Positions 4,588 to 53,442 of a stretch of 64,000 nt of DNA are shown here, piece by piece (positions within the stretch are counted from its first letter, which is position 1; each line of letters opens with the position of its first letter). The DNA is from Pontibacter sp. G13 (GTDB lineage Bacteria; Bacteroidota; Bacteroidia; J057), in contig NZ_CP134696.1 of NCBI RefSeq assembly GCF_031851795.1, positions 5,518,001-5,582,000 on the forward strand, read 5' to 3'. A model generated the notes under the pieces. That model was not told where the DNA came from, did no database searches, and saw nothing but the letters and a program-made list of their open reading frames with translations. Position numbers and translations under genes: made by a program.

Positions 4588-5112
4588 TCAACTGAGTAGA
4601 TTGCGATAGATCCGCTCATTTTCTTCGTCAAAACATACGAATAAGATCCGAGAAAAAGTATCCCGATGCGAATGCACATACGTCCTAACAGCCTCAATCG
4701 CTACCTCTGCAGCCAAATCTTTCGGGAATCGATAGATTCCAGTAGAGATATTGGGGAAGGCAATCGTCGTGCATGTCAATTCCTCAGCAATTCTCAAACT
4801 ATTCGTGTAGCAACCAGCAAGACGGGTTTTCATGCCCTCGGGTTGCTTACCCGTCCAAACCGGGCCTACGGTGTGAATGACATATCGGGCAGGCAACTGA
4901 CCAGCCGTCGTGTAGACGGCCTCTCCCACTTGACAGCCCCCCTGACGCGCCCTGATCTTACGACATTCGTCCAGAATCTCAGGACCTCCCGCCCGATGGA
5001 TCGCCCCATCCACTCCGCCGCCTCCCAGCAAAGAGCTGTTGGCGGCATTGACGATTGCGTCGACCTCTATACGCGTAATGTCCCCCCGGATGATTTCTAA
5101 CTGTGTTTCCAT
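4588..5112 (-). CDS. Macrodomain protein, O-acetyl-ADP-ribose deacetylase type
   Basis: A 174-residue single macrodomain of the YmdB/MacroD type. Visible signatures are GDITRIEVDAIVNAANSSL, the glycine-rich LGGGGVDGAIHRAGG ligand loop, YVIHTVGPVW, and FPNISTGIYRFP, which together form the ADP-ribose pocket. Family members hydrolyse O-acetyl-ADP-ribose and mono-ADP-ribosylated proteins in the cytoplasm. Length is that of a stand-alone domain. No toxin, sirtuin or ADP-ribosyltransferase gene is adjacent, so its target here is unknown. Confidence 0.93.
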   Translation of the reverse strand: METQLEIIRGDITRIEVDAIVNAANSSLLGGGGVDGAIHRAGGPEILDECRKIRARQGGCQVGEAVYTTAGQLPARYVIHTVGPVWTGKQPEGMKTRLAGCYTNSLRIAEELTCTTIAFPNISTGIYRFPKDLAAEVAIEAVRTYVHSHRDTFSRILFVCFDEENERIYRNLLS

Positions 5113-19413: not shown

Positions 19414-20001
19414 ATGTTCGAAAAAATCCGCGCTTGGCTCAAGAAATTTTCTTCCACCGAAGGACAACCATATTCCTCTCCCGAAACTACCTCCTCCGAG
19501 CCTTCTGACCAGCAGCAACAATCGCCCAATACCCGACCGCTGGATTTGGCCTTGACCTTAACGAGGACTACCCAAAACGCAGAGGAAATCCATGGCGAAA
19601 TCAAGTGGTTGGGGCATGTGATGGGGGTGACGATCGAGAGTGTGTCTGATCGGATACCTGCCGGGCTTTATCCGATCGAACTACGTCCAGATGGCGGCAA
19701 GCATGCGACCTATCAGATGCGGTATCAGGACCTTCATCAAGGGATGCTGCATATCACGGATGTCCCTGGGGTTCCTTATGTGTATCTCTGTGCGGGTCCC
19801 AACGCCCTTCACGCTGGCAGTGATATCATGGTTGGGACGCAAATCGAGAGCGTGAGTGCCGAAGGAACGGCTTCTTTTGCACCCGGCTACGAGACTGCTT
19901 ATCGATATTTGTACCAAACAGTACTAGATCAATTGGAACTGGGGAATCACATTTCGCTCGAAATCAGAGAGCCTGAATCATTTGGCCCTGCCGGCGTGTA
20001 G
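19414..20001 (+). CDS. DUF5675-like protein
   Basis: A 195-residue cytoplasmic protein. Residues 1-45 are a polar, Ser/Pro/Gln-rich tail; the remainder (LTLTRTTQNAEEIHGEIK, SDRIPAGLYPIELRPDG, VPGVPYVYLCAGPNALHAGSD) matches the DUF5675 pattern, where an I-P-x-G-x-Y-P strand is followed by a conserved loop and D-x-x-G. Function is unknown; some members occur near phage or contractile-injection genes, none of which are seen here. Its last 24 bp overlap the end of the hybrid kinase gene on the opposite strand. Confidence 0.65.
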   Translation: MFEKIRAWLKKFSSTEGQPYSSPETTSSEPSDQQQQSPNTRPLDLALTLTRTTQNAEEIHGEIKWLGHVMGVTIESVSDRIPAGLYPIELRPDGGKHATYQMRYQDLHQGMLHITDVPGVPYVYLCAGPNALHAGSDIMVGTQIESVSAEGTASFAPGYETAYRYLYQTVLDQLELGNHISLEIREPESFGPAGV

Positions 20002-21369
20002 CTCGATAGCTTGAAATAGCTCTATGGGTTTGAAGGGTTTGGACAAATAACCCGAGAAGAGATCATCGCCAGCAGTTTCTCGCATTTCTGATACGGTCGT
20101 GGCTGAAAGTGCCAAAATCGGGAGTTGCTGATAATATTCCCCTTGCAAGCTCCGCACTTTCTGGGTGGCAGCCAATCCGTCCATCACCGGCATGTGGAGG
20201 TCCATGAGCACCACATCGAATTGCTGAATTTCAATTACCTCGACTGCTTCTTGGCCATTTTGGGCCACTTGGAACTCCACTCCCCACTTCTGTAGGAATC
20301 GGGAAACCACCTTGACATTCAAGGCGTTGTCTTCCACGATCAATACTTGGACGCCGGTCAGTCTCCCATGCTCGTTCAAGTCGGAGATCGATAGCTTTTT
20401 GGGAACCTCTCCGGGAGCGACGGTTTTGAGATTCAAGCCAAAGGAGAAGATGCTGCCTTTGCCCAACTCGCTTTCCAGTTGGATCTGGGAATCCATCAGT
20501 TCTACCAATCTTTTGACGATGGCCAGTCCAAGACCCGTCCCGCCAAATTTCCGGGTAGTGTTCGATTCTGCTTGCGAATACCGCTCAAAGACCAATTTCA
20601 CCTTGTCTGCTGCAATTCCAATCCCGGTGTCGATGACCTTGAACTCCCACAGATCTTTTCGCTTGTGGATAGAGACGGTCACGCTCCCCTGTGTGGTGAA
20701 TTTGATGGCATTTCCGACGAGATTGCTCAGAATTTGGAACAATCGCGTGGGGTCACCGATGATCCATTTTTCGTCATCCGCTACTTGGAGGTCCAATTTC
20801 AGACCGATTCCCTTGGCATCTGCTAGTGCCGTAAATGATTTGATGAGATTGTTGCACAGGTCGAGGAGGTCAAAGGGGATTTCCTCCAACGAGATTTTTC
20901 CGGCCTCCATTTTGTGGAAATCCAGAATGTCATTGAGGAGCGAAAGCAAGTTTTGGGCAGAGAAGGAAAGAGATTCAAGGTGCTCGAGTTGGTCGGGTCT
21001 GGGGGATTCCTCCATGAGGATATGTGCCAGCCCTACTACCGCATTCATGGGCGTGCGAATCTCATGGCTCATCAAGGAGAGAAAGTCGGACTTGGCTTTG
21101 GAGGCGGACTCAGCCTTTTCCTTGGCTTTTTGAAGCTCTATGGCATTGTCCTCAAGCTTTTGAATGGCGTCTTTCGCTACGGCAGCTTTGTGGATCAAGT
21201 CTTCATTGAGATACTGAATACCCACTAGAATCTCCTGCATTCCGGGGTCTTCTTCGGATTCCACCATAGCATCGGTCACTTTGCAATCTCCCCGCATGAT
21301 ATCCATGAGGTGAAGCAAAATGTCCTGAACAATGGACCCGTCAACCCGAGATGAGTATGGAGATGACAT
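19978..21369 (-). CDS. Soluble hybrid histidine kinase ending the six-paralogue cluster
   Basis: A 463-residue kinase with no membrane segment. Residues about 1-70 are an acidic helical region without a known sensor domain; a coiled coil (about 65-95) leads into HisKA with phospho-acceptor His in SLMSHEIRTPMNA. HATPase follows (N-box NLVGNAIKFT, DTGIGI, GGTGLGLAIV), then a receiver domain with VEDN and phospho-Asp in VVLMDLHMPVMDG and Lys in LSKPF. No HPt is present, so output must go to another protein. It starts 24 bp after the last of six tandem paralogues on the same strand, so they are likely one operon; the missing sensor may be supplied by those proteins. Confidence 0.92.
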   Translation of the reverse strand: MSSPYSSRVDGSIVQDILLHLMDIMRGDCKVTDAMVESEEDPGMQEILVGIQYLNEDLIHKAAVAKDAIQKLEDNAIELQKAKEKAESASKAKSDFLSLMSHEIRTPMNAVVGLAHILMEESPRPDQLEHLESLSFSAQNLLSLLNDILDFHKMEAGKISLEEIPFDLLDLCNNLIKSFTALADAKGIGLKLDLQVADDEKWIIGDPTRLFQILSNLVGNAIKFTTQGSVTVSIHKRKDLWEFKVIDTGIGIAADKVKLVFERYSQAESNTTRKFGGTGLGLAIVKRLVELMDSQIQLESELGKGSIFSFGLNLKTVAPGEVPKKLSISDLNEHGRLTGVQVLIVEDNALNVKVVSRFLQKWGVEFQVAQNGQEAVEVIEIQQFDVVLMDLHMPVMDGLAATQKVRSLQGEYYQQLPILALSATTVSEMRETAGDDLFSGYLSKPFKPIELFQAIELHAGRAK

Positions 21370-21393
21370 ATAGGCGATTTCAGATTCAGTTGG

Positions 21394-21840
21394 TTATTGT
21401 GCGACGCTAGCTTGCTTGCGCAAAACGTGCTCAAGCTTGTCCTCGGCGTCCTGATAGGTGGTTTCAAGCGAAAAGTTCCAAAGATTCCAGATACTCACGA
21501 CAATTTTGGCCGAGAGGTTGATCAACGGTCCTTTACCCGTCACGATCGCAATGTGATAAAACCGATCATGGATGCTGGTCATATAATCTCTCAGCGCATC
21601 CCGATAGGCAGCATTGGGCCTTCCTACGCCAGTGAGATTGACGATCATTCCGTACTGGCGACCTGGCTCAAGGAGTCGCGAAAATTGTTCATCAAAAAGT
21701 GTGAGATGATAAATACCTCCAACAGGCATTTCATCCCAATGCACAATGCCATCGGGTCGAATCCTAATCCGATCGCGAATTGCCTGCTTTTCTTCCTCCG
21801 TGGAGTCGGGGCCATAGGCCCTCGCCTCAATCTTGACCAT
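21394..21840 (-). CDS. STAS/SpoIIAA-like paralogue 6 of 6
   Basis: A 148-residue protein. Start 21840 (MVKIEARAYGPDSTEEEKQA) aligns with the starts of its paralogues; an ATG at 21882 would add 14 residues. It shares the family pattern: R-I at the end of helix 1, IVHWDEMP, a strand MIVNLTGVGRPNAAYR, IVTGKGPLINLSAKIVV and a C-terminal helix. The beta-alpha alternation and V-x-x-D/N-L strand resemble SpoIIAA/STAS-fold regulators, an inference without search. It is the copy closest to the kinase gene. Confidence 0.75.
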   Translation of the reverse strand: MVKIEARAYGPDSTEEEKQAIRDRIRIRPDGIVHWDEMPVGGIYHLTLFDEQFSRLLEPGRQYGMIVNLTGVGRPNAAYRDALRDYMTSIHDRFYHIAIVTGKGPLINLSAKIVVSIWNLWNFSLETTYQDAEDKLEHVLRKQASVAQ

Positions 21841-22145
21841 GTCCTTCCTCGAATTTTCGTTTGTGGTTTGACGATTCCCCATTTCTTAATTGAGCTTAAA
21901 AACTAGCCACATTTCGTAATATTTACCAATGGAATGATTCACGATCCTAACAATCGCCAAATCGTGGGAGTACAATCTCCGCCTTGGGTCGCTAGGCTCG
22001 CTGACTGGGAGTAAATGACTAAATCCATCATGATTCGAAAATGGTTTCAATGCTAAACGAGATGTGTATTTTGTTTAGGTGCTAGGCGCGCTTGATCCTG
22101 ATGTTTGAATCTCAGTATGCGGCAAACACGGTGATCACAGGCCTC

Positions 22146-22601
22146 CTATACGCCCGCCAAGGGAAGATTAAGCTCGCGAAAACATGCACGTTTGGCATCT
22201 TCCAGAGTCGCATGAAAGCTATATGTTCGATAACCTATCATCGTTATAATGATTTTGGCGGCGATATTGATGAATGGGCTTCGGCCTGTCACCACGGCGC
22301 CTCGAAAAAACATATGCTTGACTTCCATGCCTATTCGTTGGACGGCTTTTCGATAGGCTGCTGTTGGTCTGGGACAATCTGTGAGATCCACAATCAGGAC
22401 CAATTTCTTTCCGAGTGCCTGAATCTCTAGCAATCGTTCGTATGAAACGGCCAAATGGCGAAAATCTCCAGTTGGACTTCCTTCCCAAAGGAGGATCTGA
22501 TCGTGGATAAATCGAATCCTGTGACGACATGCTTCGATTTCAGCAGGCGAGAGCGTTTCTCTCGGGTTGGGTAATTCCATCATGAAAAGGGTCAGTTGCA
22601 A
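22146..22601 (-). CDS. STAS/SpoIIAA-like paralogue 5 of 6
   Basis: A 151-residue protein (start possibly 18-21 bp later at one of two consecutive ATGs). It is the most divergent copy in its N-terminal half (HRIRFIHDQILLWEGSP), but keeps the core LVLIVDLTDCPRPTAAYRKA, AVVTGRSPFINIAAKIIITMIG and the C-terminal A-T-L-E-D-A helix. About 264 bp separate it from paralogue 6, the largest gap in the array; no promoter is evident there. Confidence 0.72.
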   Translation of the reverse strand: MQLTLFMMELPNPRETLSPAEIEACRHRIRFIHDQILLWEGSPTGDFRHLAVSYERLLEIQALGKKLVLIVDLTDCPRPTAAYRKAVQRIGMEVKHMFFRGAVVTGRSPFINIAAKIIITMIGYRTYSFHATLEDAKRACFRELNLPLAGV

Positions 22602-22642
22602 GGTTTAAAAAATGAGCAGTCTTGCGTATTCTATAGCCTGAC

Positions 22643-23170
22643 TCAAGCCAGTTTTCGATTTTGGTGAATGTCTGCATCGCGATAATCAATCGCTATCTCA
22701 ATGGCTTCATCAAGTGTGTGAAGAAATGTGGCATTTTGCACGCCCACAATTTGAAGGATGATTTTCGCAGATGCATTCAATACTCTGCTTCCACCGGTAA
22801 CGACACAGGCATGAATCAACCTTCCTTCGAGTATTTTCAACCATTTGACGAGGGCTTTTCGATACTCATTGTCTGGTTTGCGCGTGCCAGCGGAATTGAC
22901 AATCATGACGAATCTTTGATTCTCAGAGGTCAGTTCTTTCAGGCGCTTTTGGAAAAGGCTCAAGGTGTACAGACTGGGTTGAGGAACTTGATGCGTCAAA
23001 ACGATTTGGGGAGAAAAGACAAACATCCGGTGCGAGATGGACAGTATTTCAGCTGGAGTCGTATTGTGCGATTGGTAGATCCGATTTTGGAGTGGAGGTA
23101 TTGGGGAATGATTCGGAGCGTCTGAGGAGATAGTCTTCATAGCACTGGAAGTCAAGGTGTGAATAGGCAT
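22643..23170 (-). CDS. STAS/SpoIIAA-like paralogue 4 of 6
   Basis: A 175-residue protein. Start 23170 is favoured because the stop of paralogue 3 and this ATG share one base (TAATG), a translational-coupling arrangement; an internal ATG at 23140 is the alternative. It has an N-terminal extension of about 25 residues relative to other copies. The core is RMFVFSPQIVL, LFQKRLKELTSENQRF, VMIVNSAGTRKPDNEYRKAL and VVTGGSRVLNASAKIIL. The W-x-E-M-P motif of the other copies is replaced by THQVPQ. Confidence 0.75.
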   Translation of the reverse strand: MPIHTLTSSAMKTISSDAPNHSPIPPLQNRIYQSHNTTPAEILSISHRMFVFSPQIVLTHQVPQPSLYTLSLFQKRLKELTSENQRFVMIVNSAGTRKPDNEYRKALVKWLKILEGRLIHACVVTGGSRVLNASAKIILQIVGVQNATFLHTLDEAIEIAIDYRDADIHQNRKLA

Positions 23171-23625
23171 TAGGACTTTGGTCGTTTTGCAAGTCTTTGA
23201 GCTTCAAAGGCTCTCGCTTTCTCAAGCGCCTTTTGGTAGGTACTGTAGATTTCCACGTGGTTGACACCTGCAATTTTGGCGATCAGGCTCGTGGAAGCAT
23301 TCTTTAATCGGCTATTGCCGGTTGCCATAAAGAAGCAGTTGACCTGTTGAGTTTCTTTGAGCAAAAAGTGGATGAGGCTGGATCTGTACTCGGACCCGGG
23401 GAATTGGGTTCTTACAATATTTACAACCATAGAGAATCTGTCTTTCCCCACTGTAACTTCAGCATACCGGGCTTTGAATAGCTCTAGTTGAAACAGCGTG
23501 GTCATCGGCATTTCGTTCCAAACCATGATCTGGGGGCTTTCAAAATACATGCGCATCTGAATGGCCCGTTGCTCTTCAGGGGAAGTGTTCTGCGAATGGT
23601 ATGCTTTGCGTTCAAGAATAATCAT
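23170..23625 (-). CDS. STAS/SpoIIAA-like paralogue 3 of 6
   Basis: A 151-residue protein starting at 23625 (MIILERKAYHSQNTSPEEQ), the position that aligns with the other starts; 23679 would add 18 residues. The core reads RMYFESPQIMVWNEMPMTTL, FQLELFKARYAEV, MVVNIVRTQFPGSEYRSSL, FMATGNSRLKNASTSLIAKIAGV. It is closest to paralogues 1 and 2. Its stop overlaps the next start by one base. Confidence 0.77.
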   Translation of the reverse strand: MIILERKAYHSQNTSPEEQRAIQMRMYFESPQIMVWNEMPMTTLFQLELFKARYAEVTVGKDRFSMVVNIVRTQFPGSEYRSSLIHFLLKETQQVNCFFMATGNSRLKNASTSLIAKIAGVNHVEIYSTYQKALEKARAFEAQRLAKRPKS

Positions 23626-23691
23626 CCGATAATCCCAAGTTTGATCTTTGCTAAATTCAGGAGGATATCTCCAGAACACCCACTCACAAGA

Positions 23692-24129
23692 TTATTTCAA
23701 CAAGGCCACAGCTTCATGCCGCTCCGCCCGCTCCAAAGCCTGCTCAAAGGTTCCATGCAGTTCTGCATCATAAATACCCGCTACCTTGGCAACAAGCTCC
23801 ACACAGATGTTGATGATTCTAATGCTCCCCGTTGCCAGATAATATTTGGTGATGACTCCTTTGTTGGATTTGATAAACCTGACCAATTCAGCCCGATAGG
23901 CTGATCCTGCACGATGCGTTTTGGTCAGATTGACCACCATCACATATTGACCTCCAGTCTGAGTAATCTCCCTCAGTTTTGCTTTGAATAGCTGTAGTTG
24001 GAACAAGGTCGTGAAAGGCATTTCATTCCAGACGATCAATTGTGGGCGATAGAGATACATTCGTTCTTGAATCTCCCTGCAAACTTCAGGGGATTCTCCT
24101 TCATAATAGGGTCGATGTTCTAGGTTCAT
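23692..24129 (-). CDS. STAS/SpoIIAA-like paralogue 2 of 6
   Basis: A 145-residue protein; start 24129 (MNLEHRPYYEGESPEVCREI) aligns almost residue for residue with paralogue 1, so the longer frame from 24216 is rejected. The core is RMYLYRPQLIVWNEMPFTTL, FQLQLFKAKLREIT, YVMVVNLTKTHRAGSAYRAE, YLATGSIRIINICVELVAKV. High similarity to paralogue 1 points to recent tandem duplication. Confidence 0.78.
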   Translation of the reverse strand: MNLEHRPYYEGESPEVCREIQERMYLYRPQLIVWNEMPFTTLFQLQLFKAKLREITQTGGQYVMVVNLTKTHRAGSAYRAELVRFIKSNKGVITKYYLATGSIRIINICVELVAKVAGIYDAELHGTFEQALERAERHEAVALLK

Positions 24130-24298
24130 GGGCTGGGAAATGAAGGTTGAAATGAATTCGAAAATCAACTCATTTGCTTCCATACCTCCTTCCACAACCA
24201 TTTCAGGAACTAACACGGGTAGGGTTTATCCGAATTCTGTGATATTCCTTCAAAGGGAGGGTATCGCCAAGGAAATGGGCTGTGCGTTTAAGAATCGG

Positions 24299-24760
24299 CT
24301 AGTTCTGTTTAAGCTTTGATGGATCTGATATTAGGCGGGAGGATGCATAGGATTCACCCTTTCGAATAGCTTGATCAAATGTAGTGAAGGTGGATATGTC
24401 ATGAACTCCCGCAATCTTGGCTGTCAATTCTACACAGATGTTGATCAATCCAATATTGCCCGTGGCCAGAAAATATCTCTTGATCAATCCTCGATTGGCT
24501 TTCAAGAAATTCACCAATTCAGATCGGTAAACTGAATCTGGGCGAGGGGTATTGATCAGATTCACCACCATCACATAGGATTTTCGAGGATGGGTGATGT
24601 CCTTCAATCTTGCTTTGAATAGGTCCAATTGGAAGCAAGTAGGATAGGGCATTTCCTCCCATACGATCACTTTGGGGGATTTCAGGTACATTCGGGATTG
24701 AATCGCCCTACAGACTTCCGGAGGCTCGCCATATTCATATGGTTTGTTTTCAAGTTGCAT
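24299..24760 (-). CDS. STAS/SpoIIAA-like paralogue 1 of 6 (first gene of the cluster)
   Basis: A 153-residue protein, first in the leftward array and presumably next to its promoter in the 24761-25004 divergent region. It reads MQLENKPYEYGEPPEVCRAI, then RMYLKSPKVIVWEEMPYPT, FQLDLFKARLKDIT, YVMVVNLINTPRPDSVYRSE, FLATGNIGLINICVELTAKI. The clustering of six copies upstream of a sensorless hybrid kinase suggests that they are its inputs or phospho-regulated partners; this is inference. Confidence 0.78.
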   Translation of the reverse strand: MQLENKPYEYGEPPEVCRAIQSRMYLKSPKVIVWEEMPYPTCFQLDLFKARLKDITHPRKSYVMVVNLINTPRPDSVYRSELVNFLKANRGLIKRYFLATGNIGLINICVELTAKIAGVHDISTFTTFDQAIRKGESYASSRLISDPSKLKQN

Positions 24761-26617: not shown

Positions 26618-28045
26618 TCAGCCGCCTCGACGGCTGCTGCTTGAACTGCTGTTTCTTGTAGGACGCACGGAGCTGCTGCTTCGGTTGCTGCTGGAGGATC
26701 GAGTCGCGTTAGGCCGGGAAATCGAAGTACTACGCTGACTGGATCGATTGACAGAACTGGAACGACTGCTAGACCTAGAACTACTGGAGGAAGAACTCCG
26801 GCTGGGGCGACTCCAAGAGCTTGAGCTGGATGAATTTCGGCTGCTAGAGCTGCTGCTTGTCGAAGTGCTTCGGCTCGGACGATTCCAGGTACTTGAGCTG
26901 GAAGAATTCCGACTGCTAGAACTGCTTGAGCTAGCAGAGGAGCTTCGGCTTGGACGGTTCCATGTGCTTGAGCTAGAGGAACTCCGATTGGTAGAGGTCG
27001 AAGGACTTGTGCTCCGGCTACTTCCCCATGTCACACTCCCTGAATTCTGGTCGCTACTTCCGGTCCGGCTTCTATCGATTTCGTTGGAAATCCGGTCTAC
27101 TGTCCGGGAAATTCGGTTGCTTGTACGGCTCAACCAAGACGAGCGGCGAGTCTCAGACGCTGGTTGTGTAGAACCGGTGCGGGCAGTTGAACGACCATTG
27201 TTGCTGATGGTAGATCGCACTACTTGAGACGATCGGCCATTTCGATCGGGATTGGTCGTGGTGCTTCGACTCGTTTGAGTCTGAGTAGCTCCACGGATTG
27301 TGCGGCGAGTATCGTTGTTGGATGCGATCTGCCGGACGTTTCGGCTAGTACCGATTTCCCGAGGGGTCCGTACTGTACGGGTTCCTCCTGCTACTTCGCG
27401 GATGTTGCGACCGGTATTGGATTGGCGGACGATCTCTCTTCCATATCGGCGTTGGTATCCGTAATTGGCGGCAAAATTGCTTCCAGATTGATATCCCACG
27501 CAGTATCCTGAGTTGAATCCATTGTTCCATCCTTGCTGGTAACCCCATGAGTAGGAAGGGTAGGAGTAGCTGTAATAGGTTGGGTAGTTCCAGTTGTTGT
27601 GGTAGGAATAGCTGGAATATCCCCAGTCCCAGTAAGGATCATACCCCCAAGGATTCCATCCCCATGCATAGCAATTGTCCCAGTAGGAGGCCCAATTGAA
27701 GTAGATGTTCACGCGCCATCCACGATTGCGTTTGCGGTAGCGGTTGTTCCAAGTACTCCAATAGGGGGTGCCTGCTACGTAGAAGACATCATCGGAGAAA
27801 TAAGGATCATAGTAATCGAAGTTCACCCGAAATGAGGATGAGGTATGAAACCGGCGGATACGTTTGCTGTAGTAGAAATCGTCGTCGTAGTCGTTGTAAT
27901 ATTCGTCATCCTCCCAAAATCCCGATTCGAGACTTGACGATTCCTGATATGTCCAACTATCGTCTCCTTGAGCGAAAACACTTGTGCTGCTCAGAGATGC
28001 GGTTGTGGTCAAAATCAATGCGAGTATCCAGTTGATCGGTTTCAT
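26618..28045 (-). CDS. Exported low-complexity Tyr/Trp- and Ser/Arg-rich protein
   Basis: A 475-residue protein with signal peptide MKPINWILALILTTTASLSS through VFA-Q. After an acidic Asp/Glu/Tyr stretch (about 30-60), residues about 85-195 are extremely rich in Tyr, Trp, Ser, Asn and Gly (WGWNPWGYDPYWDWGY). Residues about 195-320 are Arg/Thr/Ser-rich. The last 130 residues are almost only Ser with periodic TWNRPSRS or SWSRPSRS units. The repeated Ser codons explain long shadow ORFs on the other strand. Composition suggests an adhesive or structural surface protein; no catalytic domain or T9SS tail is seen. Confidence 0.8.
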   Translation of the reverse strand: MKPINWILALILTTTASLSSTSVFAQGDDSWTYQESSSLESGFWEDDEYYNDYDDDFYYSKRIRRFHTSSSFRVNFDYYDPYFSDDVFYVAGTPYWSTWNNRYRKRNRGWRVNIYFNWASYWDNCYAWGWNPWGYDPYWDWGYSSYSYHNNWNYPTYYSYSYPSYSWGYQQGWNNGFNSGYCVGYQSGSNFAANYGYQRRYGREIVRQSNTGRNIREVAGGTRTVRTPREIGTSRNVRQIASNNDTRRTIRGATQTQTSRSTTTNPDRNGRSSQVVRSTISNNGRSTARTGSTQPASETRRSSWLSRTSNRISRTVDRISNEIDRSRTGSSDQNSGSVTWGSSRSTSPSTSTNRSSSSSSTWNRPSRSSSASSSSSSSRNSSSSSTWNRPSRSTSTSSSSSSRNSSSSSSWSRPSRSSSSSSSRSSSRSSSVNRSSQRSTSISRPNATRSSSSNRSSSSVRPTRNSSSSSSRRGG

Positions 28046-34384: not shown

Positions 34385-34530
34385 ACGCGATTAGGTTGAG
34401 AATTCGTTGGAACGCAAAAAAGTAGATTAAGCAACGGACTTTGCGAACGGCGGTTCCTGACAAAATCCATAAAGAATTTACAACAAAATTCCCATTTCCC
34501 GGTACATTTTTTCTTTCGTATCTTACTCCT

Positions 34531-37029
34531 ATGCAACTGTCAAAATTATTTCCCCAACTCAACACCCGCGAATCCCTCCATGCGCTCGTTCTGGTAGGAT
34601 TTGCAGCCATCATTCTGGCAGTAGGGGTCATGGGGTATCTGGTTTATAAAAATGTCAACAATCTCCTTGACTTGTCTCAGCAAGTTTCTGAACCGGAGGA
34701 GTATATCAATAGATTTTCCGACATCCTCGACGATGCCAACCAGGCACAAAACAGCGTCTATAAATACATCATTTCCAGGGACCACAAATATCTGAACGGC
34801 TACTACGTGCATGCCAACATGTTCGAGAAAAAAGCCGAGAAACTGCATGGTTCCCGTGCTGAAGAACTGGCGATTCTACCGCTGACGAAGGAAGTGGAGA
34901 CCTTGCTGCGAAAGCGATATTACCTATTTCGGGATATGATCTCGGCAGTGGCGGATCAAGACGTCAGGGACCTATTCAAGAACCTCAATGAGCGAATCAA
35001 GAAGAACTCCAACCGTTCAGACACTTCACAAGAAGGATCACTGAATACCTTGGTCAATCAGCATGTCCTCTTGAATGGGATCCTCGGAAATGTCGATAGC
35101 TCCAGAGCACGGACGCATGATCATATTGTCAGTTCCATAGGCCTTCCTGAAGATCTCGAATCCAGCGAGGACCCTTCTATCCAAAAGTTGATTTCGCTGA
35201 ATGTGGAGGAATTGACCCGCCTCAAGGTCTTCAAGCGATTGAGTGAGCAGGATGAACAGCTACACAAGGATATCCGGGAATTGATCATCGAGATCGAAAA
35301 GGAGCTGGGAGCCAAGCAGACACAGGCAACCGCCAAAGCCACCCGTCAAGCAACCAGTACTGGGATCACGGTGGGCGTGTTCTCTTTGGCGGTACTGGTC
35401 TTCGCAGGAATTTTGCTGGTATTCATCAGCCGCAGATTGGATGAAAACCGTAGCCTGCAATTGCGTTTGGAGCAGGAAAAGCACCGTGCCCAGAAACTCG
35501 CCAAGGCCAAGGAAGATTTCTTGGCCAATATGAGCCACGAGATTCGGACGCCACTGAATGCCGTCATCGGGTTTTCGGAACAAATGGCAGATACGAAGCT
35601 TTCGGAGCGCCAGTCCCAATATTTGACTCCTATCCGTGATTCGGCAGTATTCCTCCTGGCCCTGATCAACGATATTCTGGATTACTCCAAGATTGAGTCT
35701 GGCAAATTTTCCTTGCATCCGACCGGGTTTGAGCCCGAACCCCTAGCTTCTCGCGTTGTCCAGATGATGGAACCTGCAGCCTCTCAAAAAGGGTTGGAAC
35801 TCGGCTTCAAAGCAGATCCCACCCTGCCCCAAATTCTGATAGGAGATTCGCTGCGCCTCAGACAAATGCTGCTCAATCTGATGGGGAATGCCATCAAATT
35901 CACTGAAAAAGGGGGCGTGAAGCTTTCCATATCGGTGTTGAATCGTTCCGAAACCTCCTGCTTGGTGCGATTTGAGGTGGAAGATAGTGGTATCGGAATC
36001 TCTCAGGAAAAGCTGGATCGGATCTTCGATGAATTCCTTCAGGCGGATTCTAGTATTTCCAAAAAATATGGCGGTACCGGTCTGGGACTGTCCATCACCA
36101 AGAAATTGGCGGAAATGCAGGGAGGCCAAATTGTCCTCGAAAGCGAATCCGGAAAAGGTACAAAAGCGATTTTGACCATTCCGTTTCCGTTGGGAGCAGC
36201 GAAAGATTTGGAGTCTGGCGCCGAAGTCCGCAAGATTGACGAGGCTGCCTTGAAAGGAAAAACCGCACTCGTAGCTGATGACGAACCCTACAACCGAGCC
36301 TTGATCGAAGTGATACTCGAGAAATGGGGGATTCATCCGCTAGTGGTCAATGATGGCAAAGAGGCCGTGGACAAGCTCCGAGCTCATCCCGAAACCGATT
36401 TTGTCCTGATGGACCTGCACATGCCCGAGATGGATGGTATTTCAGCAACGGAGGTGATTCGCAGGGAAATAGCTCCCGATATCCCCATTGTCGCGCTTAC
36501 CGCTACCTCTACTGGACCCGAGATCGTCCGCGCTCTCGAATCGGGGATGGATGCGCATCTCGTCAAGCCCTTCCATGAACAAGACTTATTTAGCTTGGTA
36601 CTGGACCTGCTCCATGTACCTACTCCTGCTAAGCCTGTAGTAACCTCTACCCAACAACATCCAGAAGAACCCATGCGCTACCAATTTGACAATCTTAAGC
36701 GACTCGCCAACAACAACGAAGCCTTCATGGTGAAGATGCTCAATATCTTCCTTCAGTCCGCTGGCGAACATCTCGAGGCCTTCCGTTCAGGATCTGCTTC
36801 GGGTGATTGGGAAAAAGTGGGATTTGCCGCACACAAACTGGTGGTGCCATGTCGTCATTTGGGAATGACTGAGCTGGTGGATCAACTCAAAACCATCGAG
36901 CACGGCGCTACAGAATCTCCAGTTCCTGCCAATCTCCAAGGCGAGGTGGATTCGGTAATCCGCCAATTTGATCAGATCATTCCGGCGATTGAGGCGGATA
37001 TCAGACGATTGGAGACTGCCCAGAGCTAA
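34531..37029 (+). CDS. Membrane hybrid histidine kinase with receiver and HPt domains
   Basis: An 832-residue kinase starting at 34531 (MQLSKLFPQLNTRES); the longer frame from 34441 is rejected because it adds 30 non-helical residues. TM1 (ALVLVGFAAIILAVGVMGYL) and TM2 (TVGVFSLAVLVFAGILLVFI, about 305-330) flank a helical extracytoplasmic sensor of about 260 residues. HisKA has SHEIRTPLNA; HATPase has NLMGNAIKFT, DSGIGI and GGTGLGLSI; the receiver has ADDE and phospho-Asp in VLMDLHMPEMDG; the C-terminal HPt has His in FAAHKLVVPCRHLG. A full phosphorelay is present in one chain. The NtrC-type regulator 130 bp downstream is the likely final acceptor. Confidence 0.93.
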   Translation: MQLSKLFPQLNTRESLHALVLVGFAAIILAVGVMGYLVYKNVNNLLDLSQQVSEPEEYINRFSDILDDANQAQNSVYKYIISRDHKYLNGYYVHANMFEKKAEKLHGSRAEELAILPLTKEVETLLRKRYYLFRDMISAVADQDVRDLFKNLNERIKKNSNRSDTSQEGSLNTLVNQHVLLNGILGNVDSSRARTHDHIVSSIGLPEDLESSEDPSIQKLISLNVEELTRLKVFKRLSEQDEQLHKDIRELIIEIEKELGAKQTQATAKATRQATSTGITVGVFSLAVLVFAGILLVFISRRLDENRSLQLRLEQEKHRAQKLAKAKEDFLANMSHEIRTPLNAVIGFSEQMADTKLSERQSQYLTPIRDSAVFLLALINDILDYSKIESGKFSLHPTGFEPEPLASRVVQMMEPAASQKGLELGFKADPTLPQILIGDSLRLRQMLLNLMGNAIKFTEKGGVKLSISVLNRSETSCLVRFEVEDSGIGISQEKLDRIFDEFLQADSSISKKYGGTGLGLSITKKLAEMQGGQIVLESESGKGTKAILTIPFPLGAAKDLESGAEVRKIDEAALKGKTALVADDEPYNRALIEVILEKWGIHPLVVNDGKEAVDKLRAHPETDFVLMDLHMPEMDGISATEVIRREIAPDIPIVALTATSTGPEIVRALESGMDAHLVKPFHEQDLFSLVLDLLHVPTPAKPVVTSTQQHPEEPMRYQFDNLKRLANNNEAFMVKMLNIFLQSAGEHLEAFRSGSASGDWEKVGFAAHKLVVPCRHLGMTELVDQLKTIEHGATESPVPANLQGEVDSVIRQFDQIIPAIEADIRRLETAQS

Positions 37030-50704: not shown

Positions 50705-52084
50705 ATGAATATGATCAAAGAGATCCAAGAATTTGTCGTAAACCAGGCAAGCTTATTTGGAGGAGAAGAGGGAAGAGAGCATAATTCCTTCATTTTTAGG
50801 TCTAATACGGAGATTGGTTCAGGCGAAGCAGGAAAATTCTTCGGCTTGATTAGTCCTTATGAAGAATCTTCAGGGCCTTATCATGACTTTGGATTCACCA
50901 TTTTTCCGGGAGAAGCAGGTGAGCCATGGTTTGTTACTCTAGGCGTCGGGACGCTTGGATTTAAGAATGATATTCATCTAGCAGGCACTCCTGGATTGGT
51001 TCGGATTTTTAAACCGCTTTGTCGAGAGCAAGGATACTGTAAAACCAATTTCCAGAATATCGATCAAAGCCTTCCAGCGGCATTTGTCAATAAATACCTG
51101 CCACACTTAAAAGGAACGCTCAAAAAATATTCGAGACATACATTGGCGGGTGCAGTGATAGATGCCCCCAATTCAGAAGAAGGAAAACGATTGATTAATG
51201 CGTTTCTAGCTGGCTATGCCAAGTTAAGAGATTGGCCTTCAAATGCTTCTCATCGAAAGGCAATTTCTCAGGCATTGAAGTCATATTTGCCAGGGGAAGA
51301 AGGAGAATTCGAAACAGTACTATCACTTATAGAGAATCGAAAATTCATTGTGCTCCAAGGTCCTCCCGGTACGGGGAAAACCAGGATGGCCAATCTAGTA
51401 GCTCAGCATTTGGAAGCAAAGGTTGAGTTTATTCAATTTCATGCCGAGACTTCCTATTCAGATTTTGTTTCGGGAATCCGGCCGAAATTGGAGGGCTCTG
51501 AAACAGGATTTGAATTAACTCATGGAGCACTGGTAAATGTCATCAAATCAGCCATTACAGAACCGGAAGTCAAGCATTTACTTATCATAGATGAGATCAA
51601 TCGCGCAAATTTAGCACAGGTTCTTGGACCCGTTTTTTACCTATTTGAGGCCAATCGGGAAATAACTACCTCTAAAATCGCAATCTCCAAAGACTTGACA
51701 ATTTCTGCCCTGCCTCAAAATCTGTTTGTGGTAGCGACCATGAATACTGCAGATAGAAGTTTGGCGGTAGTGGATTTTGCTTTGAGGAGAAGATTCGCGT
51801 GGTATGATATGAAGCCTAAGAAAATCTCCGACAAGAAATTCCATGATACCTTCTTTTCAGAAATGGACACGATTTTCAAATGGTATGCAAAATCGAACGA
51901 ATTGAATCTCCAACCTGGACAGGCCTATTTTCTGGCTGAATCCAAAGAGGAAATGCACCAGCGACTAGAATTTGAAATCATGCCATTGATTAAGGAGTAT
52001 TTGCTTGAAGGAATGCTTGTGAATGCCACTGACGAATTCGAAAACTATTTCCAGGAGCATTTGAACAAATCTCTTTTCGAATGA
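50705..52084 (+). CDS. McrB-like AAA+ GTPase/ATPase restriction subunit
   Basis: A 459-residue protein. Residues 1-200 are a unique N-terminal region with no family I recognise, probably the DNA-target-recognition part. The C-terminal half is the McrB AAA+ module: Walker A GPPGTGKT at 219-226, FHAETSYSDFVSGIRP, Walker B LLIIDEINRANL and the McrB signature MNTADRSLAVVDFALRRRF. In type IV restriction systems McrB hexamers translocate on DNA with modified bases and recruit McrC. It overlaps the next gene by 4 bp (ATGA). Codon use is visibly more AT-rich than neighbours, pointing to horizontal acquisition. Confidence 0.9.
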   Translation: MNMIKEIQEFVVNQASLFGGEEGREHNSFIFRSNTEIGSGEAGKFFGLISPYEESSGPYHDFGFTIFPGEAGEPWFVTLGVGTLGFKNDIHLAGTPGLVRIFKPLCREQGYCKTNFQNIDQSLPAAFVNKYLPHLKGTLKKYSRHTLAGAVIDAPNSEEGKRLINAFLAGYAKLRDWPSNASHRKAISQALKSYLPGEEGEFETVLSLIENRKFIVLQGPPGTGKTRMANLVAQHLEAKVEFIQFHAETSYSDFVSGIRPKLEGSETGFELTHGALVNVIKSAITEPEVKHLLIIDEINRANLAQVLGPVFYLFEANREITTSKIAISKDLTISALPQNLFVVATMNTADRSLAVVDFALRRRFAWYDMKPKKISDKKFHDTFFSEMDTIFKWYAKSNELNLQPGQAYFLAESKEEMHQRLEFEIMPLIKEYLLEGMLVNATDEFENYFQEHLNKSLFE

Positions 52085-53442
52085 TAAAGGATGTACCACC
52101 GTTTGCGTACTTGACCGCTTTGAATCAAGAACCTCTTGTTTTGGATGCTAAGTCAATCAAAAGGAAGGGATTAAAACCTACTGATACCAGAGCAACAGAC
52201 CAGTTTTTGTGGAATTTCATCACGCTCAATCAAAAGAAATTTGAATTTCTAAACATCTCTGCGACTGTTAACGGGATTGGTAGACGAGCACAATTGTGCC
52301 TAAAAGCAGGTGAATATGTAGGAGCCATTCCCCTCCAACAGGGTGCTAGTGGATCTAGGTTAGGGGATCTGATTGTTCGACCTCGCGAGGGAAATACAGG
52401 AGGAATGGGGGATTTTTCCGAGCTAATTTGGCTGATCGGGGAAGACTATGGAGCCGATTTTCTAGAAGGAAATCCGCTCACCTCAGTCCAGGGAATGAAA
52501 CCGCCACTCTACTTGGAGGCGTTGAAATTTGTTGAAGCCTTTCAGCTTCTTATCAAGAATGGGTGGAATCAGTTTCGGATTACCTCTTCAATCGTGGATC
52601 ATCCATCTGGCAACATACAATGGAATAAGTATGCCGAAACCTATCACCAGGTTGAAAACCGATTTCGATTTCCCCAAAAGCGCAGTGTATTGAGTGCGGA
52701 TCATTCAGAGATGCGACAATTGAAATACGTGTTTGAACTGTGTAAACATGAACTAAGGAGTAATAATACGCCTATCGGTCTGAGAATTAAGATGGAAAGC
52801 CCCTTAGCGATAATAGAATCAAAATTAGCTGCATTAAAATCAGAGGAGGTTTCGCTCATTAAAATGAAAAGAAATGACAATCAAATTGTCCGGATGGTCA
52901 AGGAGATAGCCAATCAAATATTGAGAAAAGGGGCTCCGCATTCCTTCGGTTGGAGGATGGATGTTGCTGAGCTATTCGAACGATATATGCAAAGGATTTT
53001 GAATGAAACAGCCAATGAACTAGGTGCAAAGTTTTCCCGAAATCCCAGGATTACACGCAAAAAACACAGGTCATTTCCTTGGCAACTGAATCACCTTGAG
53101 CCAGATGGGATTCTTCAAGTGGGGAATAATTGGGTCCCGATAGACGCTAAGTACAAAATGCATTTGTATCAGAAGATGGGAACAACTGATTATTTCAAAG
53201 AAACGTTTCGTAGGGATGTTCATCAATTGCTCGCATATATGGCATTTTCAGGAAATACTCCAGCAACTGGTGTTTTGTGTTATCCCAGCTACCAAGCAGA
53301 AAAGCATCAGCTCTCTTTTAGGAATCCTATGAACGATTCAGTATGTACAGTATTCCTCGTCGGACTCGTATTTAAGCCTGAAGGATATTGGGATTCAAAA
53401 AAAATGATGAAACAACTAGTCGAAGAATGTTTTATGTCCTAA
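52081..53442 (+). CDS. McrC-like nuclease subunit
   Basis: A 453-residue partner of the preceding McrB-like gene, overlapping it by 4 bp. The C-terminal third has the McrC plan: a helical MDVAELFERYMQRIL, then a PD-(D/E)xK-type nuclease core with PDGILQV, WVPIDAKYK (the D-x-K pair) and DVHQLLAYM. The N-terminal 270 residues are longer and less familiar than E. coli McrC and may correspond to a DUF2357-type region. It is expected to cut DNA bearing modified bases. Confidence 0.87.
   Translation: MIKDVPPFAYLTALNQEPLVLDAKSIKRKGLKPTDTRATDQFLWNFITLNQKKFEFLNISATVNGIGRRAQLCLKAGEYVGAIPLQQGASGSRLGDLIVRPREGNTGGMGDFSELIWLIGEDYGADFLEGNPLTSVQGMKPPLYLEALKFVEAFQLLIKNGWNQFRITSSIVDHPSGNIQWNKYAETYHQVENRFRFPQKRSVLSADHSEMRQLKYVFELCKHELRSNNTPIGLRIKMESPLAIIESKLAALKSEEVSLIKMKRNDNQIVRMVKEIANQILRKGAPHSFGWRMDVAELFERYMQRILNETANELGAKFSRNPRITRKKHRSFPWQLNHLEPDGILQVGNNWVPIDAKYKMHLYQKMGTTDYFKETFRRDVHQLLAYMAFSGNTPATGVLCYPSYQAEKHQLSFRNPMNDSVCTVFLVGLVFKPEGYWDSKKMMKQLVEECFMS

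Follow-up and report, generated by a model that had tools for sequence, protein, structure and literature searches.

A Tandem Array of Six STAS/SpoIIAA-like Genes beside a Soluble Hybrid Histidine Kinase in Pontibacter sp. G13

Many soluble histidine kinases have no recognizable sensor. Among the kinases that serve for comparison here, CheA is an HPt-type chemotaxis kinase and RsbT is a Ser/Thr switch kinase. The locus that we compare with them lies in a stretch of 64,000 nucleotides of the Pontibacter sp. G13 genome (the window, G000:C1:5518001-5582000, in a 7.67-Mb genome of 3 contigs), where the minus strand carries a row of six homologous genes, designated p1 to p6, and directly after them the gene for a soluble kinase of 463 amino acids (aa) with HisKA, HATPase and receiver (REC) domains. 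Three described systems come close to it. In Sinorhizobium meliloti and its relatives, CheS is a STAS-only protein that is encoded in a cluster with the soluble histidine kinase CheA and binds it (PMC12654446). In the RsbR/RsbS/RsbT stressosome, several STAS paralogues act as alternative inputs to one kinase (PMC9765535), and in some stressosome loci a downstream sensor kinase is the proposed target of RsbT (PMC9237108). Finally, the SpoIIAA-like DUF3478 proteins (PF11964; structures 2q3l and 2ook) include the top structural match to p1 and are joined to the p1–p6 family by a bridging homologue described below.

The locus differs from each of them. CheS is present in one copy, is reported to act on CheY binding and forms no tandem array, and the window kinase is of the HisKA type, with His102 and no Hpt, rather than of the CheA type. 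Neither is it an RsbT-type kinase, its architecture being HisKA-HATPase_c-REC, and whereas RsbR can carry an N-terminal sensor (PMC9237108), p1–p6 have the size of single domains. As for PF11964, the SpoIIAA phosphosite is conserved neither there (PMC2954212) nor in the p1–p6 family, but none of the eight family members matches PF11964, and the term "histidine kinase" is absent from the text of PMC2954212. In the passages considered of a review of STAS-only proteins (PMC8256260), "histidine" and "sensor kinase" occur only for the HptB partner-switching pathway and "two-component" does not occur. Among the open-licence PMC papers that our searches listed, we recognized none that describes a pairing of STAS-like genes with kinases bearing the N-terminal module reported here, or a six-fold expansion of such genes. 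That a STAS-only protein can bind a histidine kinase is known; the pair of STAS-like gene and module kinase, and its six-fold tandem expansion, are new here.

The array and its kinase partners in three orders

The six genes are paralogues that have been retained as proteins. BLASTP gives a match in all 15 pairs, with E values (computed with the database size set to 10 million residues) from 1.6e-58 to 4e-4, only p3–p5 being weaker than 5e-8, and chance homology is thereby ruled out. Aligned identity falls from 55% for p1–p2 to 20–30% for distant pairs, and the STAS-like region takes up most of the length of each protein (145–175 aa). Divergence is greatest at third codon positions and least at second positions in 15/15 pairs, and this concentration at third positions indicates that p1–p6 have been kept as proteins. 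For these comparisons p2, p3, p5 and p6 were aligned from later ATG codons (24129, 23625, 22583 and 21840), which are candidate starts. The locus had been singled out in a first-pass annotation, made from the sequence alone, as six paralogues leading into a soluble hybrid histidine kinase. This description holds: Pfam finds HisKA (E 2.8e-16), HATPase_c (6.5e-31) and Response_reg (1.6e-24) in the kinase, which is thus a hybrid histidine kinase by definition, and the sequence bears out both the 24-bp gap between p6 and the kinase and the TAATG in which the p3 stop and the p4 start overlap. The common motifs listed in that annotation were overstated except for [AV]-T-G, which occurs in 6/6 proteins; AKI is found in five of the six, W-x-E-M-P exactly in four, S-x-Y-R in three and VMVVNL in two. 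The GC content of p1–p5 (43–48%, against 50.4% for the window) could reflect acquisition, although it proves nothing. No further copy was found elsewhere in the genome, all six matches at E 1e-3 being the array itself. When a database of the array gaps only was searched by tblastn, no convincing remnant of an extra copy was found in the gaps or before p1, the best matches being one in the p5–p6 gap (E 0.13) and one upstream of p1 (E 0.031; 38 residues, 34%).

Homologues in other genomes place the same kind of gene beside the same kind of kinase. All genome sets used here are samples that may overlap, and genomes are counted at a cut-off of E 1e-3. Among 395 genomes of the class, a profile built from the six finds, besides their own genome, only G056 (6.6e-19) and G091 (1.6e-14), which belong to other orders of the class and have the homologue as a single gene. 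In all three genomes the homologue lies directly upstream of a kinase gene on the same strand; the 3' end of the STAS-like gene overlaps the kinase start by 20 bp in G056 and by 17 bp in G091, where a receiver gene in turn shares 4 bp with the front of the STAS-like gene. The kinase bodies differ: the window kinase is HisKA-HATPase-REC, that of G056 has PAS regions in addition to HisKA-HATPase-REC, and that of G091 has HisKA-HATPase only. Common to the three is an unnamed N-terminal module of about 50 residues, present as a tandem pair in G056, with invariant L21, I24, G27, E37, L48, G50, L54, E56, D57 and L58 (window kinase numbering). A profile of this module reaches only 4 of 295 genomes of the class, namely the same three and, more weakly, G118 (1.1e-4); three of its matches are in G056, one of them on another contig. 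The strongest sign that the two probably form a functional pair is that, in three orders, a gene found by its own profile has this rare module next door, and the link to the kinase suggested in the first-pass annotation is strengthened by it. In G056 the STAS-like gene sits in a dense run of signalling genes (L021:1-12342, G056:C176), with receivers and a HAMP protein as well as several PAS kinases around it.

The family is otherwise sparse in the collections searched. It is absent from all 12 other genomes of the same family as Pontibacter sp. G13; weak matches at two loci in such genomes (L007 and L008; E 0.067 and 0.080) were taken as chance, being stretches of longer open reading frames (ORFs; 546 and 440 aa) that lack the family layout. 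No other genome in a draw of 395 from the phylum has a match at 1e-3, three matches outside the window's own genome lying at E 0.002–0.006. The family and order of G056, as searched, amount to one genome and those of G091 to two. When matches with E up to 0.1 are listed, the profile of the six reaches 14/395 class genomes, of which only G000 (the window's own), G056 and G091 are at or below 1e-3. The family profile reaches 51/395, with G160 as the only addition at or below 1e-3 and G239 next (0.0011). More distant relatives may hide among the matches weaker than 1e-3, although at L050, one of the recurring short matches, the only ORF of at least 100 aa over the match is an unrelated-looking 725-aa frame. 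Searches of plasmids by tblastn with p6, of viral contigs with the module and of a genome contig collection with p1–p3 returned nothing; the module found one locus in that collection, in a record of a Bacteroidia metagenome-assembled genome (JAESSM010000221.1), which we take to be the G056 contig.

The order of the genes is reflected in their phylogeny. A maximum likelihood tree (LG+G4) of the six proteins and the two single-copy partners is a ladder in which p1 and p2 are followed by p3, then p4, then p5 and p6, and finally the partners, with ultrafast bootstrap values of 78–99, and the order of this ladder is the gene order. Of nine placements of the partners on the fixed six-gene tree, the approximately unbiased (AU) test rejects those on p1, p2, p3 and (p1,p2), with p at most 4e-4. 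Against the two partners p6 scores 134 and 140, and p1–p5 score 89–106 and 68–91. On the simplest reading of these sequences, p6 would be the original partner of the kinase and the other copies would have been added outward, p1 and p2 latest.

Fold of the small proteins and the input module of the kinase

Sequence and structure agree on the fold of the small proteins. The fold was modelled for p1 (AlphaFold2, eight family rows), and p2–p6 are tied to it by homology. The model (predicted local distance difference test, pLDDT, 89.2) has its strands and helices in the same order as the SpoIIAA fold, and the top chain of the Protein Data Bank (PDB) in VIA-align is the DUF3478 SpoIIAA-like protein 2q3l (Z 11.5 over 117 residues at 2.6 Å), followed by the Dyadobacter STAS protein 4xs5 (Z 10.7, a tie within 1) and RsbS (6jhk, Z 10.3). 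Foldseek with the same model returns the same families, but its best E is only 0.018. By sequence, none of the eight family members reaches the PF11964 gathering score or any other Pfam cut-off; the best E values in a PDB sequence search with the family profile and in NCBIfam are 0.061 and 0.11, respectively. A bridge is provided by a 120-aa homologue in G160, which is found by the family profile (E 1.1e-4), retains the four invariant positions R79, T100, G101 and A131, and matches PF11964 with 33.1 bits against a cut-off of 25. The structural matches of the model and this bridge together support a STAS/SpoIIAA-like (STAS/SEC14-type) fold for the family, as the first-pass annotation had supposed. 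Within such a fold the invariant R79 at the start of helix 2 and T100-G101 at the end of strand 4 are likely neighbours.

The same annotation held that the kinase has neither a recognizable sensor domain nor an HPt. As far as Pfam goes this is so, since no sensor family and no Hpt is found in the window kinase, but its N-terminus is the conserved module described above. Because this module is common to three kinases, we consider that the window kinase has an input module, and we reject the view that it lacks any input domain. A model of kinase residues 1–165 (six rows; pLDDT 85.5, predicted template modelling score 0.48) places a helix at 11–25, a linker with a short helix at 33–38, and a single helix at 42–120 that bears His102. 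The VIA-align list for this N-terminus is filled by the hairpin of the dimerization and histidine phosphotransfer (DHp) domain at residues 59–165 and therefore says little about the module; the best Foldseek match is GacS (7z8n, E 0.0032).

A helix-linker-helix layout is also that of the HAMP linker. The module resembles HAMP in that its helix-linker-helix is predicted to run straight into the phospho-acceptor helix; it differs in that, as read from the sequence, no membrane segment precedes it, and Pfam HAMP has no match in the 4 module sequences. In hhalign the module and three HAMPs align colinearly, with a linker 3 residues longer, but this likeness is weak: six module rows give P 0.016 and a probability of 2.8%, the highest obtained, and the four partnered rows give P 0.094 and 0.6%, compared with P 0.097 and 0.87 for a decoy DHp profile.

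A detached-sensor model and its alternatives

The six-gene row before one kinase, together with the single-copy pairs in distant relatives, points to the small proteins as interchangeable inputs of the kinase, and we propose, at about an even chance of being right, that the locus encodes a two-component module with a detached sensor. A small cytoplasmic STAS/SpoIIAA-like protein would be the input subunit of the soluble kinase and would dock directly on its helix-linker-helix module. Docking would twist or stabilize the long helix bearing His102, with which the second helix of the module is predicted to be continuous, and would so set autophosphorylation. Output would pass through the receiver in the same chain in the window and G056 and through a separate receiver in G091. 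The signal might be a small hydrophobic compound, as the cavity of the 2q3l family has led others to propose for that family (PMC2954212), or a protein. In this model p6 would be the ancestral partner, and p1–p5, successive tandem duplicates away from the kinase, would be added inputs that may compete for the module or combine on it. A further elaboration, which we regard as somewhat doubtful, is that of a plug-in sensor kinase, with detached SpoIIAA/SEC14-like sensors and a cytoplasmic HAMP-like dock. Six competing plugs would here let one kinase respond to several intracellular small molecules, and tandem duplication would have made six plugs where the other two carriers have one.

If the detached-sensor model is correct, the sensor of a soluble kinase may be a separate STAS-like protein acting on a defined docking segment of the kinase, and the locus supplies a concrete small pair of this kind. 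A six-copy array ordered as it seems to have been duplicated, and still adjoining its kinase, would show a two-component system gaining inputs while its kinase remains unchanged. The genes are short, and in two genomes overlapping, so that binding and activity are directly testable.

Several observations weigh against this model. The pairing rests on three loci, one of them in a 69%-complete genome (G056), and the array shows up in no sister genome and is seen in one genome only, so that the earlier expectation of finding array and kinase in related genomes stands for the clear homologues in G056 and G091, each adjoining a kinase, and fails for the array. These same kinases supplied the sequences for the module profile, so that while the rarity of the module carries information, finding it in them is no independent evidence. 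Module and STAS-like gene are also not always seen together: no STAS-like gene was seen beside the module kinase of G118 (ORFs read by eye), the second module kinase of G056 is cut by a contig end, and for the more distant SpoIIAA-like homologue of G160, located close to the end of a contig, the 5 kb read contain no kinase. With respect to the history of the array, the AU test leaves roots on p4, p5, p6 and the branch p1p2p3|p4p5p6 (p 0.066–0.19). Lastly, the 263-bp gap between p5 and p6 could split p1–p5 from the kinase. The second module kinase of G056 (L042:3-869, G056:C71), truncated by the contig start, has a HisKA_2 body.

This gap makes a single operon less than certain, and it is the starting point of an alternative that we consider rather unlikely, in which only p6 serves the kinase and p1–p5 form a separate operon of p6-derived SEC14/CRAL-TRIO-like carriers or binders of small hydrophobic compounds that have lost their link to the kinase. 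It would fit with p6 alone being clearly near the single-copy kinase partners, with the relative 2q3l, which has a hydrophobic cavity of 1743 cubic angstroms and was proposed as a carrier (PMC2954212), and with one relaxed -7-like octamer in the gap, TAGCATTG. However, the minus strand of the gap holds no sigma-70-like or terminator-like site, and the tandem series has stayed beside the kinase, with no copy found elsewhere in the genome. The Bacteroidetes-type promoter consensus has no match in the array; over the region as a whole, terminator-like sites number 9 against 5.6 in shuffles and promoter-like sites 4 against 7.8.

Three further alternatives appear still less probable. That STAS paralogues co-assemble in stressosomes (PMC6760441, PMC9765535) and that the structural matches to p1 include RsbS and stressosome chains (Z 8.7–10.3) would accord with a stressosome-like scaffold, in which the six proteins would form a hetero-oligomer able to sequester the kinase or release it, its composition set by paralogue expression. 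We judge this improbable, given that the kinase is not RsbT-like, that a fused sensor domain would not fit into such short paralogues, and that the single-copy form in G056 and G091 needs no hetero-assembly. Action after the kinase, with the STAS-like proteins as CheS-like modulators steering phosphate between kinase and receivers, would have parallels in the altered CheA-CheY binding reported for CheS (PMC12654446) and in the receiver gene that overlaps the STAS-like gene of G091; yet what the three kinases share beyond the catalytic core is the module and not a receiver, the G091 kinase having none, and we hold this, too, to be quite improbable. The least credible alternative, for which we see very little chance, is partner switching in which the STAS-like proteins would be phosphorylated on serine. 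In SpoIIAA the phosphorylatable Ser is at the start of helix 2 (PMC2954212), which in the p1 model is residue 76, and at this position, judged from the p1 model, the alignment and the text of PMC2954212, p1, p2, p3 and the G056 homologue do have Ser. In p4 the residue is Asn, however, and in p5, p6 and the G091 homologue it is Ala. With Ser in only 4/8 members, Ala in p6 itself and an adjoining kinase of the HisKA type with His102, a conserved phospho-switch, which the first-pass annotation gave as one option, is not supported.

Coordinates of the locus and neighbouring genes

Table 1. Features of the array and its kinase, with positions in the window.
Feature	Position	Strand	Basis
p1, STAS/SpoIIAA-like, 153 aa	24299..24760	-	AlphaFold2 pLDDT 89.2; VIA-align Z 11.5 to 2q3l
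p2, STAS-like paralogue	23692..24129 (open frame from GTG 24216)	-	56% identity to p1 over 144 residues, E 1.6e-58
p3, STAS-like paralogue	23170..23625 (open frame from GTG 23679)	-	43% identity to p1, E 9e-39
p4, STAS-like paralogue, N-terminal extension	22643..23170	-	37% identity to p3, E 1e-23
p5, STAS-like paralogue	22146..22583 (open frame from TTG 22601)	-	35% identity to p6, E 1e-20
Gap of 263 bp between p5 and the p6 open frame, possible operon break	21883..22145	-	ORF coordinates
p6, STAS-like paralogue adjoining kinase, proposed ancestral partner	21394..21840 (open frame from ATG 21882)	-	Best of six against both single-copy partners
Soluble hybrid histidine kinase, 463 aa	19978..21369	-	Pfam HisKA 92-157, HATPase_c 205-314, Response_reg 342-456
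N-terminal module, residues about 10-60: helix, linker, helix continuing into phospho-acceptor helix (predicted)	21190..21342	-	Common to G056 and G091 kinases; model
HisKA with His102	20899..21096	-	Pfam
HATPase_c domain	20428..20757	-	Pfam
Receiver domain	20002..20346	-	Pfam

About 10 kb from the array, the plus strand of the window (34441-37029) encodes another hybrid kinase with HisKA, HATPase_c, a receiver and a C-terminal Hpt, and with a CHASE3 match just below the cut-off (23.9 vs 28 bits). That this protein could make up for the missing Hpt of the array kinase is speculation. Convergent with the array kinase gene is a plus-strand ORF for a DUF5675 protein (19414-20001), which overlaps the 3' end of the kinase gene by 24 bp. 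On the minus strand, 26618-28045 encodes a 475-aa protein that has no Pfam match at 0.01 and whose C-terminal half is, by eye, very rich in Ser and Arg. Farther away on the plus strand (50705-53442), where the GC content of the window is lowest (43.6–44.0%), an AAA_5 ATPase is followed by a McrBC-family protein, the two ORFs overlapping by 4 bp, in what looks like a McrBC restriction pair. Finally, a minus-strand ORF with a macro domain (4588-5112) overlaps by its end the start of a DUF4294 ORF, again by 4 bp.

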